Source of the DNA: Nitrospirales bacterium
GTDB taxonomy: Bacteria; Nitrospirota; Nitrospiria; Nitrospirales; UBA8639
Reading direction: 5' to 3'
NCBI GenBank assembly: GCA_021604005.1
Contig: BQIV01000004.1
Location: 62,001 to 126,000 of the forward strand
Length of the DNA: 64,000 bases
In this document: in pieces, positions 32,369 through 36,022 of the stretch
How positions within the stretch are numbered: position 1 is the first letter of the stretch
Layout of the letters: each line of letters begins with the position of its first letter
Made by a program: the position numbers and the translations under genes
The notes under the pieces: model-generated
Seen by the model: only the letters and a program-made list of their open reading frames with translations
Told to the model about the DNA's origin: nothing
Database searches by the model: none

Positions 32369-32519
32369 ACCGTCGTTGAACAATCATGAGTCCTCCCAAA
32401 CTTTGTCCCCATATTGGTGTCGCTGGGAGTTCAAAAACATTTGCTTATTGTGCCACGCTATCTAGCAAAGCTGACATCTGGTTGGTTCAGTGCTGTGTAG
32501 AGAAACGACGAGAATTGTG

Positions 32520-33572
32520 ATGAAAAACCTTGGGTCAATGTTAGGTATTGAAACTTCCTGTGACGAGACGGCAGCCGCAGTTGTGGCACCTGACGGCAAA
32601 GTGTTGTCCAATGTGTTGGATTCTCAGGTTGATGTGCATGCATTGTACGGGGGCGTCGTTCCGGAGTTAGCGTCACGTCGCCATGTCGAAACGATCGAGT
32701 CAATTGTGCAGCTGGCAATGACAGAGGCAAACGTATCGTATCATGAGTTAGCCGCCATTGCCGTGACCCATGGGCCTGGTCTTGCCGGGGCGCTTCTTGT
32801 TGGAGTGAATTTCGGGAAAGCACTGGCGTATTCGTTGCAGATTCCACTCGTGGCCGTGAATCACTTGAAAGGTCATTTAGCCTCAACATGGGTGGAACAC
32901 TCAGACTTTCCTCAGTCGTCAATCATGTTAGTTGTATCGGGTGGGCACACGCATTTATTTTATGCCGCGGGTTCCGGGCACTATCAATTACTCGGCAAAA
33001 CAATTGATGATGCCGCAGGTGAAGCATTCGACAAGGGTGCAAAAATGTTGGGTTTGAGCTATCCGGGTGGACCGCTCATTGATCGCTTAGCACAAGCTGG
33101 CAAGCCAGGGACCGTTCATTTTCCTCGCCCCTATCTGACGCGTGGAGGATTAGACTTTAGTTTTAGCGGGCTCAAAACGGCATTATTGTACTATTTGCGG
33201 GACATGAAAAAGTCCAACAGCGTGATGCCATCCATCGAAGACCTTGCCGCAAGTTATCAGGAGGCTATTGTCGATGTTTTGGTTGAAAAGTCGTTTCGGG
33301 CTGTACGGAAATATCACGCCAAAGGCATTGCCGTGGTTGGTGGTGTCGCGGCCAACAGTCGATTACGTGAGCGGATGACCGAGCGAGCGCAACACGAGAA
33401 AATCCACGTGGCGTTACCGTCACTGTCGCTGTGCACTGATAACGCGGTGATGATTGCCGCTGCGGGTTGGGCGCAATATCGATTAGGAGATATTGCTGCC
33501 TGGGATGTCGATATGGACCTTGGGCAAGCCTCGGAGCTTATGTATAGCTCCGCATGCCGCGATAACGGGTGA
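32520..33572 (+). CDS. tsaD: tRNA N6-adenosine threonylcarbamoyltransferase
   Basis: TsaD makes the t6A37 modification of ANN-reading tRNAs with TsaB, TsaC and TsaE. It begins LGIETSCDETAAAVV, has the metal-binding VNHLKGH, SGGHTHLFYA, GEAFDKGAKMLGLSYPGGP and FSFSGLKTALLYYL, and ends with DNAVMIAAAGW. ATG 32520 gives 350 residues. An alternative ATG at 32538 would trim six. Partners are not in the window. Confidence 0.96.
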   Translation: MKNLGSMLGIETSCDETAAAVVAPDGKVLSNVLDSQVDVHALYGGVVPELASRRHVETIESIVQLAMTEANVSYHELAAIAVTHGPGLAGALLVGVNFGKALAYSLQIPLVAVNHLKGHLASTWVEHSDFPQSSIMLVVSGGHTHLFYAAGSGHYQLLGKTIDDAAGEAFDKGAKMLGLSYPGGPLIDRLAQAGKPGTVHFPRPYLTRGGLDFSFSGLKTALLYYLRDMKKSNSVMPSIEDLAASYQEAIVDVLVEKSFRAVRKYHAKGIAVVGGVAANSRLRERMTERAQHEKIHVALPSLSLCTDNAVMIAAAGWAQYRLGDIAAWDVDMDLGQASELMYSSACRDNG

Positions 33573-33662
33573 ACGCCCGTTGGGCTCTCGTGCAATGGAG
33601 GTGTAACGATTCCTGTTGTCTTTGGAAATCTTCACGGACTGAAAGCAAATCAGATCAGTCGA

Positions 33663-35315
33663 ATGGAGCGTTTGTATCGTCGCCGTGTTCCGACTGACAA
33701 GGTGGTGACGAATGAGCTGGCTCGTATCTGCGCGGAGCTTTCATTTGAAACTCGCCGGCAAATCGGGTTGCTTATAGACCGGCAAGGCCATATCCAGTCG
33801 GTCATTATTGGAAATGATCATGAACTCGTCATCCCCAATTTGGCGCGGAGCCGCTCTGGCCTCAGGCTCTTGCGAGGCGTACGCCTGGTGCACACTCACC
33901 TTCATAATCAACCGTTGACCCGTGACGATTTAACCGACCTTGCCCTTCTTCGGCTCGATCTGATGATGGCGATTGGCGTAGGGAAAGACGGTCGTGTGCA
34001 AGATGTGTTTTTGGCGCATCTGTTGCCTCAGCCCAAACAGGGAAAGTCATGTCAAGAATGGGAACCCTGCTCTTTGCATGGCTTTCAACTCGATTGTCAG
34101 GATTTTATTCTCTCACTCGAAAACGAATGCACACGAACAAATATCGGGTTGCGGAAAGGAAAGGAATCGTCACGGGCCATTTTGGTGAGTGTGTCCACCG
34201 AACGGGCCTCGCGTCGTCAGGAACATTTAGACGAACTACGAGAACTGGTTCGCGTCAGTCACATTCACGTAGTCGATTCGATCATACAAAGACCCCATGC
34301 GCTGCATCCCAAGTATGTCTTGGGGCTTGGGAAATTGAAAGACGTGATAATCCAGGCTTTGCAAACCGGAGCTGACTGGTTGATTTTTGACCGGGATCTG
34401 ACGCCAGCACAAGTTCATGGAATTTCCGAGGTGACAGAGCTGCGAGTCTTGGATCGTACGCAAGTCATTTTAGATATCTTTGCGCAACGGGCGCACTCAA
34501 GAATTGGAAAAGTTCAAGTTGAACTCGCTCAGCTTCGTTACCGGCTTCCGCGATTATCCCAATCCAATACGGCATTTTCACGCTTGGCAGGTGGAATTGG
34601 TTCGAGGGGACCAGGGGAAACCAAACTGGAAACCGATCGTCGGCGCGCGCGCGATCGGATCCGTCGTCTTGAGGCAGAGTTGGTTGCAGTTTCGCGAAGC
34701 CGTCAACAACAACGAAATATGCGCAGTCGCCAGGCGATACCCGTGGTTTCGCTGGTAGGATATACGAATGCTGGAAAGTCGACGCTCTTGAATGCCTTAA
34801 CGGGAAGTTCCCAGTCAGCCAAGGATCGAGTGTTTGAAACGCTGGATACGGTGAGCCGTCGGTTGTATATCCCGGATCGAGGCGAAATCATTCTGACGGA
34901 TACGGTCGGTTTTATCCGGCAGTTACCGGAAGATCTTGTGGCAGCCTTTCATACGACGTTACAGGAGTTGAAGTTTGCTGATGTGTTAGTGCATGTTGTG
35001 GATGCTAGGACCCCGGACCCAGATCGTCATATTGAAGTCGTCGAATCTATCCTGGCGCAATTAGGCTTTGATACTATCCCTCGTCTTATGGTGTTGAATA
35101 AATGTGACTTGCTTCCAGCTGATCAGGTTGAACAGATGTGCCACCGGTATCGAGCGGTTGGGATTACTGCAACGCAAGGCGAAACGGTTGAAGACGTTCG
35201 ACAGGCGCTTGCACATATGCTGAACCGACTTGATCGTGAGGGCGAGTTGAAAGGGAGATGGGGTGCAGACCGGGATACTCGTTTCATGAAGGCAGCGAGT
35301 GTGGGCGTGTCATGA
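33663..35315 (+). CDS. hflX: GTPase HflX
   Basis: HflX is a ribosome-associated GTPase that splits stalled ribosomes. Motifs are the N-terminal LYRRRVPTDKVVTNELAR, the HflX domain (HPKYVLGLGKLKDVI, RGPGETKLETDRRR) and the G domain (G1 GYTNAGKST, G3 DTVGFIRQLP, G4 NKCD). ATG 33663 is the first ordinary start (550 residues). In frame, however, the text upstream reads VVFGNLHGLKANQISR, which continues the usual HflX N-terminus. GGAGGTG at 33597-33603 lies seven bases before an ATT at 33609. The true start is therefore probably a non-AUG codon at 33609 (568 residues). The stop overlaps nth in ATGA. Confidence 0.94.
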   Translation: MERLYRRRVPTDKVVTNELARICAELSFETRRQIGLLIDRQGHIQSVIIGNDHELVIPNLARSRSGLRLLRGVRLVHTHLHNQPLTRDDLTDLALLRLDLMMAIGVGKDGRVQDVFLAHLLPQPKQGKSCQEWEPCSLHGFQLDCQDFILSLENECTRTNIGLRKGKESSRAILVSVSTERASRRQEHLDELRELVRVSHIHVVDSIIQRPHALHPKYVLGLGKLKDVIIQALQTGADWLIFDRDLTPAQVHGISEVTELRVLDRTQVILDIFAQRAHSRIGKVQVELAQLRYRLPRLSQSNTAFSRLAGGIGSRGPGETKLETDRRRARDRIRRLEAELVAVSRSRQQQRNMRSRQAIPVVSLVGYTNAGKSTLLNALTGSSQSAKDRVFETLDTVSRRLYIPDRGEIILTDTVGFIRQLPEDLVAAFHTTLQELKFADVLVHVVDARTPDPDRHIEVVESILAQLGFDTIPRLMVLNKCDLLPADQVEQMCHRYRAVGITATQGETVEDVRQALAHMLNRLDREGELKGRWGADRDTRFMKAASVGVS

Positions 35316-36022
35316 AGCGCTCCCATACAGTCTCCCGTGAGATCCGGCGAACAAGAACGTCGGCATCGACAAGGAAAAGGCCGATAGCCAAATCGCGAGT
35401 CCGGAAAATCTTCGAGCAATTAGGCAACGCTATTCCGGATCCGGAAGTTGAGCTCACGTCTTCCAACCCGCTGGAGTTATTAATTGCCACGATTCTTTCG
35501 GCGCAATGTACGGATGAACGTGTGAATACAGTGACTCCGGCCTTATTCGCACGGTATCATACTGCTCTCGAGTATGCAGAGGCTGAACCTCGTGAATTAG
35601 AAGCGCTGATTCGTTCGACGGGGTTCTACAAAAGTAAGGCGAAAAATATTATTGCCTGCGCCTCGCTGATCGCGACTCGCTTTCACGGTCGCATTCCAGA
35701 CAATATGGAAGACTTGACCGGGTTGCCTGGAGTAGGACGGAAAACAGCGAACGTGGTGTTAGGCAGTTATTTTGGCCAGCCAGCAATTGTGGTCGATACC
35801 CATGTGAAGCGAGTAGCGAATCGACTGCAGTTGACTGAAAGCGATGATCCCACAACGATTGAATATGATCTTCAGAACGTGTTGCCAAAAGCCCAATGGA
35901 CCATCGGTGCTCAACGGTTACTGTTGCATGGCAGATATGTGTGTCAAGCGCGAGTCCCGAAGTGTGAGCACTGTGTCATTTATACGATGTGTGCGTGGGA
36001 TGGAAAGTTCGTAATCGCATGA
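35312..36022 (+). CDS. nth: Endonuclease III
   Basis: Nth is the bifunctional DNA glycosylase/AP lyase that removes oxidized pyrimidines. The helix-hairpin-helix LPGVGRKTANVVL carries the catalytic Lys, and VVDTHVKRVANRL has the catalytic Asp. The C-terminal CX6CX2CX5C (CQARVPKCEHC...C) binds a 4Fe-4S cluster. ATG 35312 overlaps the hflX stop and gives 236 residues, including a basic N-terminal tail of about 30. Its own stop overlaps the yicC-like gene. Confidence 0.95.
   Translation: MKRSHTVSREIRRTRTSASTRKRPIAKSRVRKIFEQLGNAIPDPEVELTSSNPLELLIATILSAQCTDERVNTVTPALFARYHTALEYAEAEPRELEALIRSTGFYKSKAKNIIACASLIATRFHGRIPDNMEDLTGLPGVGRKTANVVLGSYFGQPAIVVDTHVKRVANRLQLTESDDPTTIEYDLQNVLPKAQWTIGAQRLLLHGRYVCQARVPKCEHCVIYTMCAWDGKFVIA

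Follow-up and report, generated by a model that had tools for sequence, protein, structure and literature searches.

A conserved AUH codon as the probable start of hflX in Nitrospirota and other phyla

We find that the hflX gene of a Nitrospirales bacterium very likely starts at an ATT codon, at position 33609 of the window, the whole 64,000-nucleotide stretch of DNA analyzed here. This start is inferred from sequence alone, without proteomic or ribosome-profiling data, and is backed by conservation, by placement of the Shine-Dalgarno (SD) sequence, by the pattern of codon substitution and by a structure model, which leave us nearly certain of it. The feature is far broader than one gene. Among 341 hflX loci, ATH (ATT, ATC or ATA; AUH in RNA) stands five codons ahead of the conserved Gly of the motif G(N)xxGLK, a place that we call codon -5, in 248; a shifted ATH is present in 28, only a canonical codon (ATG, GTG or TTG) in 62, and neither in 3. 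Starts of the AUH type are generally regarded as almost exclusive to infC and a handful of scattered genes. If our reading is true, hflX is a second gene that keeps AUH across phyla, with a product that works next to IF3 on subunit separation; IF3 discrimination would then be a wider regulatory device, and ribosome splitting would be linked to IF3 supply. Gene finders that accept only ATG, GTG and TTG mis-start long-type HflX. No report of an AUH-type hflX start was found in the open-access literature searched, in which coverage was partial and subscription papers were missing.

The start of hflX in the window and its relatives

The features of the locus are as follows.

32490-33572, + strand: tsaD frame, from the ORF list and its translation, listed from GTG 32490
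33597-33603, + strand: Shine-Dalgarno sequence GGAGGTG, 5 bases (33604-33608) ahead of ATT, with homologous SD sequences in relatives
33609-33611, + strand: very likely hflX start codon, ATT, from conservation, SD placement and substitution pattern
33609-35315, + strand: hflX, 568 codons plus stop TGA 35313-35315, assigned by curated HflX models
33609-34166, + strand: N-terminal extension of HflX, residues 1-186, beginning at ATT, from structure and sequence comparison
33663-33665, + strand: first in-frame ATG, residue 19, the start given by a standard ORF caller and judged not to be the start

The gene upstream of hflX, which we take to be tsaD by its motif LGIETSCDET, ends in TGA 33570-33572. 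This stop lies in the same frame as hflX, provides the upstream in-frame stop, and is separated from ATT by only 36 bases, which read ACG CCC GTT GGG CTC TCG TGC AAT GGA GGT GTA ACG. From ATT 33609, where the conserved N-terminus VVFGNLHGLK begins, the frame continues CCT GTT GTC TTT GGA AAT CTT CAC GGA CTG AAA. There is no in-frame ATG, GTG or TTG between the tsaD stop and ATG 33663, and a standard ORF list accordingly opens hflX at 33663, giving 550 residues and losing the first 18. The first-pass annotation had proposed a probable start at ATT 33609, a frame free of canonical codons upstream of ATG 33663, and a GGAGGTG seven bases ahead of ATT. The first two points held, the second directly in the sequence, with the frame as described; the third held in part, as the spacing is 5 bases from GGAGGTG and 7 from the end of GGAGG.

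One line of evidence for the start comes from loci that leave little room for any other. No canonical start able to give the conserved N-terminus was found between TGA 33570 and Gly6 in the window, and the same is true of 36 of 43 loci from the organism's family. Over the full set, 187 of 341 loci (185 of 336 when the 5 duplicate contexts are removed) have an upstream in-frame stop, no ATG, GTG or TTG up to the conserved Gly, and an ATH between the two. In several, the stop directly abuts the ATH, as TAA ATA (L154, L161), TAG ATA (L171) or TAA ATT (L315). All 341 loci were retained with a looser anchor motif; a stricter motif, applied to Desulfobacterota, left 2 of 70 rows without an anchor.

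The SD sequence is placed to match. Of the 248 loci with ATH at codon -5, 240 have an SD match of four or more bases lying 4-10 nt ahead of it; when the upstream bases were shuffled 200 times, the mean was 59.9 and the maximum 74. Spacing peaks at 6 nt and the mean contiguous match is 5.5 nt. Where the ATH is shifted, at -7 or -6 before Gly in Acidobacteriota, the SD sequence shifts along with it.

Substitutions divide at the same point, being spread evenly over codon positions ahead of ATH and strongly biased to third positions after it. Within genus g1, differences at the three codon positions are 0.54/0.58/0.60 before ATH, 0/0/0 at ATH and 0.08/0.00/0.45 after it. The third base of ATT is invariant in genera g1, g10 and g2, whereas, over the 17 codons that follow, third bases vary in 45%, 43% and 23% of comparisons, respectively. 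In Nitrospirota, Pro, Ser or Ala almost always follows ATH; other residues are common in Desulfobacterota. Methionine aminopeptidase is known for its preference at this position, and we infer that Pro, Ser or Ala as second residue would suit removal of the initiator Met.

At the protein level, all of 40 sequences keep Gly6 and Gly10 and almost all keep Leu11 and Lys12; these four residues lie upstream of residue 19. The structure model places a strand at residues 4-6 and a helix at residues 13-24, with block-mean pLDDT of 85-93; when residues 1-183 are modeled alone, the same region reaches pLDDT 91-97 and residues 1-18 sit within the fold. A start at residue 19 would therefore delete the first strand and truncate the first helix.

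Loose tolerance of odd starts in the family was considered and rejected. In the same family, infC starts with ATG in 30 of 30 loci read (13 further matches were left unread), and 19 of 20 loci of a hibernation-factor gene offer ATG or GTG at a distance of at most 8 codons (the other, L415, has ATG at -17). For tsaD, 110 loci were examined and the gene was found in 29, of which 28 have a canonical codon no more than 14 codons from the motif. From these canonical starts, we conclude that ATH is not a loosely used start in this family. The same reading, done by eye, served as a positive control and recovers the known infC ATH starts in Syntrophales, Thermodesulfovibrionia and others, including ATA (L258, L259, L263, L265, L269, L274, L275), ATC (L266, L270, L272) and ATA behind GGAGG (L257, L261, L271).

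Distribution and inheritance of the ATH start

Within the family of the window organism, 44 of 48 genomes matched and 43 loci were read (G043 is a fragment without the N-terminus, and L002 is another GTPase); codon -5 is ATT in 41, TTG in 1 and ATG in 1. The order sample matched in 188 of 196 genomes, and among 60 loci outside the family, hand-picked across genera, the codon is ATT in 47, ATC in 12 and ATG in 1. At the level of class and phylum, 137 of 148 genomes matched, and 40 new hand-picked loci gave ATC 15, ATA 9, ATT 8, ATG 2, GTG 1 and other codons 5. Altogether, the 143 Nitrospirota loci have ATT in 96, ATC in 27, ATA in 9, ATG in 4, GTG in 1, TTG in 1 and other codons in 5, which puts ATH at codon -5 in 132. 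The choice of T, C or A differs between clades, and the third letter is constant inside some genera (ATT in g1, in g10 and in 13 of g2; ATC in L101-L109). In this sample, we also note one internal TGA in the HflX frame of an order-level genome (L083, G050:C7:13916-15604), either a sequencing error or the mark of a pseudogene, and a second, more distant HflX-like match, spanning approximately query residues 255-532, in many members of a different family within the order, such as G065, G080 and G086.

The same start class recurs outside Nitrospirota. A scan of named genomes, limited to the best 80 of 103 relatives, drew mostly on entries labeled Deltaproteobacteria, Myxococcota, Hydrogenedentota, Acidobacteria, Nitrospinaceae and Nitrospirota, and codon -5 was ATC in 24, ATT in 12, ATA in 7, ATG in 9, TTG in 2, GTG in 2 and another codon in 24. 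For example, Desulfovibrio sp. MES5 has ATT (L237), and ATC is found in bins of Syntrophus (L191) and Nitrospinaceae (L207); Hydrogenedentota carry their ATH one codon further on (TCC ATT CGG, L224). For Desulfobacterota, 105 of 118 genomes matched and 70 loci were read, comprising the 30 best and 40 hand-picked, with ATT in 23, ATC in 18 and ATA in 10. For Acidobacteriota, 56 of 60 genomes matched, and only the 18 loci whose match reached the N-terminus were read; ATH lies at -5 in 9 and at another nearby codon in 8, and 1 has only ATG. Myxococcota, with 53 of 58 genomes matched and 30 loci read, are mixed (ATC 9, ATT 4, TTG 9, ATG 6, CTG 1, AAA 1). Among the 28 shifted-ATH loci, L156 and L305 are weak, having ATH at -2 and poor SD spacing. 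A collection of plasmids held one long-type HflX, in Fusobacterium.

A few loci depart from both classes. In L301 and L302, from the Desulfobacterota sample, there is no ATG, GTG, TTG or ATH near the N-terminus, and CCA ACG AAA follows an SD-like stretch; an ACG start is possible there. L305 resembles these two, with the difference that it has ATA at -2. In L411, a Myxococcota HflX, a CTG that falls outside the ATG/GTG/TTG set occupies the start position.

Canonical hflX starts cluster in particular lineages, for example one Myxococcota group (TTG) and Desulfuromonadales (ATG). On a tree of 193 long HflX proteins, built with FastTree only and with ambiguous rows counted as canonical if a canonical codon lay within 7 codons, the labels of 44 canonical and 146 ATH rows require 18 changes, and shuffled labels require at least 35 (100 shuffles, mean 39.8). 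The ATH start has thus been inherited over long periods and has been lost or regained repeatedly. It is the commoner state in every phylum sampled except Myxococcota; the root of the tree was not inferred.

The start class of hflX can be set beside that of infC. An IF3 search of 50 genomes gave matches in 46, from which 30 infC loci were read. Both genes have ATH in 18 genomes. Five genomes (four Desulfovibrio-like and one Myxococcota bin) combine an ATH hflX with an ATG infC, and three show the reverse (L214, L176, L206), a pattern seen in Desulfuromonadales. One genome (L203) has ATG in both, and the infC start is unresolved in three (L277, L281, L282). These mixed combinations indicate that the start class is often common to the two genes and that neither needs the other. 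We also observe infC ATA in Thermodesulfovibrionia and Syntrophales-like genomes (L257, L258, L261, L263, L271), as opposed to ATG in Desulfovibrio-like genomes and in the family of the window organism. The classic AUH start of infC has thus disappeared from some lineages whose hflX retains one.

Possible control by IF3, and alternatives

Conservation of this start class in hundreds of loci and several phyla suggests, as an inference from sequence alone, that the amount of HflX is metered. By analogy with infC and in the absence of expression data, we regard an AUH start under IF3 control as the most plausible account of hflX, although our preference for it is a modest one. In this model, ATT 33609 would be read by initiator tRNA as formyl-Met, with AUU, AUC and AUA pairing with the initiator anticodon at two positions only. 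IF3 would reject such codons, and little HflX would be made for as long as 30S subunits are occupied by IF3. Rejection would ease, and HflX would rise, if 30S subunits came to outnumber the available IF3 or if initiation took place on idle 70S ribosomes that lack it. HflX would then split idle or stalled 70S ribosomes into subunits that IF3 can hold apart. HflX would thus be made when its own substrate accumulates, the feedback logic of infC applied to a ribosome-splitting GTPase. The start codon, the SD sequence and their conservation are what the DNA itself provides; repression by IF3, its release by idle ribosomes and the feedback are all inferred. Several facts suit the model. AUH, rather than GUG or UUG, is kept in hflX behind a good SD sequence, IF3 is reported to repress non-canonical starts (PMC5472188), and IF3 is the anti-association factor after splitting, with HflX an alternative splitting factor under stress (PMC9067457). 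Against it, AUH in hflX and AUH in infC do not track each other, and IF3 control must be dispensable because a number of lineages have a canonical hflX start (62 of 341 loci; 18 changes on the tree). The first-pass annotation had called infC-like control by an initiation factor conceivable, which is consistent with all findings and remains an inference.

A bolder reading makes hflX the second deeply conserved gene, beside infC, under IF3 start-codon control, such that ribosomes without IF3, whether idle 70S or excess 30S, would prefer hflX and unsplit ribosomes would trigger synthesis of their own splitter. We consider that the balance tips slightly against this reading. It adds the possibility that AUH is ancestral to the long-type HflX of Nitrospirota, Desulfobacterota, Acidobacteriota, Myxococcota and Hydrogenedentota.

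Three other explanations deserve consideration. One is that translation begins at ATG 33663, or at some other codon that lies upstream or out of frame and is followed by a frameshift, and that ATH is merely a conserved Ile codon; it is supported by the choice of 33663 by a standard ORF caller and by a nearby canonical codon in some loci. We nevertheless find it very unlikely, given the loci in which a stop touches ATH, the 187 loci without a canonical codon upstream of the conserved Gly, the invariant third base of ATT in g1, g10 and g2, and an SD sequence spaced for ATH. Its individual forms fail as well. ATG 33663 is not conserved, with many relatives lacking Met19 (Ile in L005, Leu in L006), and falls inside the helix at 13-24; an out-of-frame start at GTG 33601 runs straight into TAA, and the SD spacing fits ATH; and a conserved Ile within a longer protein is excluded by stops immediately before ATH in several loci. 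The first-pass annotation had proposed aligning the N-termini of relatives with their DNA, and had held that a standard start at 33663 in relatives, or an ATG at 33609 on resequencing, would refute the ATT start. In the alignment, ATT recurs and relatives have no standard start at 33663. Nor is there support for a sequencing or assembly error by which ATG was read as ATT, an explanation that is all but excluded by recurrence of the codon, which is ATT in 41 of 43 loci of the family and ATT, ATC or ATA in independent assemblies of other phyla.

The rival that survives best, and that we consider possible, accepts AUH as the true start and holds that it only fixes a low, constitutive level of HflX without IF3 feedback, as has been proposed for Escherichia coli pcnB. 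All evidence for the start applies equally to this reading, and the literature cites an AUU start as the limit on translation of pcnB (PMC13009471, PMC1780047). The independence of hflX AUH from AUH in infC, and reversion to TTG or ATG in some lineages, also favor it. In Staphylococcus aureus cvfC1, moreover, an AUU start lowers output with no response to medium (PMC13009471), and an AUH start therefore need not mean regulation. However, a weak SD sequence or a GUG or UUG start would suffice to keep expression low, yet the SD sequence is strong and AUH is kept, and for infC, the second gene in which we saw deep conservation of AUH, feedback is known.

More broadly, hflX joins the known AUH-start genes and is unusual among them for the depth of its conservation and for its function. 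Like hflX, infC combines an AUH start and an SD sequence, kept over AUG across phyla, and encodes a factor whose targets are free and split ribosomal subunits. Unlike hflX, its product, IF3, is itself the discriminating factor, whereas HflX is a GTPase, and any hflX loop would therefore be indirect; in the window's family, moreover, infC itself starts with ATG in all 30 loci read. E. coli pcnB, a different gene, also has an AUU start, one reported to limit its synthesis (PMC1780047, PMC13009471). Streptomyces sigR is, like hflX, a stress gene other than infC with a non-canonical start, and its start is repressed by IF3 (PMC5472188); by contrast with hflX, the codon is GTC, the observation concerns one genus, the function is different, and IF3 repression has been shown by experiment. 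The S. aureus genes cvfC1 (AUU) and ccpN (AUA) resemble hflX in having a conserved AUH codon behind a strong SD sequence (PMC13009471), although their conservation is among staphylococci whereas the hflX start spans phyla. For lepA, a translation GTPase, an AUU start has been proposed to be needed in two species, as two isolated annotation cases (PMC1780047), and eight Nostoc genes with ATA or ATT starts have been described (PMC8557916). Expression of hflX is tied to the state of translation in Firmicutes, through uORFC-6-1 (PMC8632094) and rli80-hflXr (PMC9067457); these are leader-peptide or attenuator RNAs, whereas in the window the element is the start codon itself.

The HflX protein, its extension and neighboring genes

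The product of the gene is HflX, scoring 422.9 bits against TIGR03156 (GTP_HflX; cut-off 216.75) and carrying the Pfam domains PF16360, PF13167 and PF01926. Residues 186-543 of the model superimpose on HflXr (8a57_D) with Z 38.1 and rmsd 2.3 over 351 aligned residues. That the window HflX splits 70S ribosomes is assumed by analogy with its family (PMC9067457). Residues 1-186 form an extension that is missing from solved HflX structures, with PDB sequence matches to HflX proper starting at residue 188 or later and HflX structures aligning from residues 184-188 onward.

A search of 40 members found no consistent Pfam family for the extension. Its model has pLDDT 91.5, and its best structural matches are JAMM proteins, led by 5ld9_A (Z 7.7, rmsd 3.8, 113 aligned); a Z under 8 is too low to settle the fold, and the best Foldseek E value is 3.1e-3. 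Across 40 sequences, H95 and H97 are nearly invariant (His-Thr-His) and D107 and D110 are invariant. The JAMM/MPN zinc motif is generally given as HxH-x7-S-x2-D. H97 and D107 lie 10 residues apart, as against 11 in that motif, and no clear partner Glu was identified. The models thus leave it possible that the extension, which most resembles JAMM/MPN proteins, is related to them; the likeness is weak, and the extension may or may not bind metal.

Two observations concern the neighboring genes. The tsaD start is uncertain, since in-frame ATGs lie 1 and 7 codons ahead of its conserved motif (window 32490-32540), and a downstream ATG is likely to be the true start rather than GTG 32490. At the other end of hflX, the ATG of an nth-like gene, in frame with ORF 35258-36022, overlaps the hflX stop as ATGA (35312-35315), an arrangement through which translation of that gene could be coupled to hflX.
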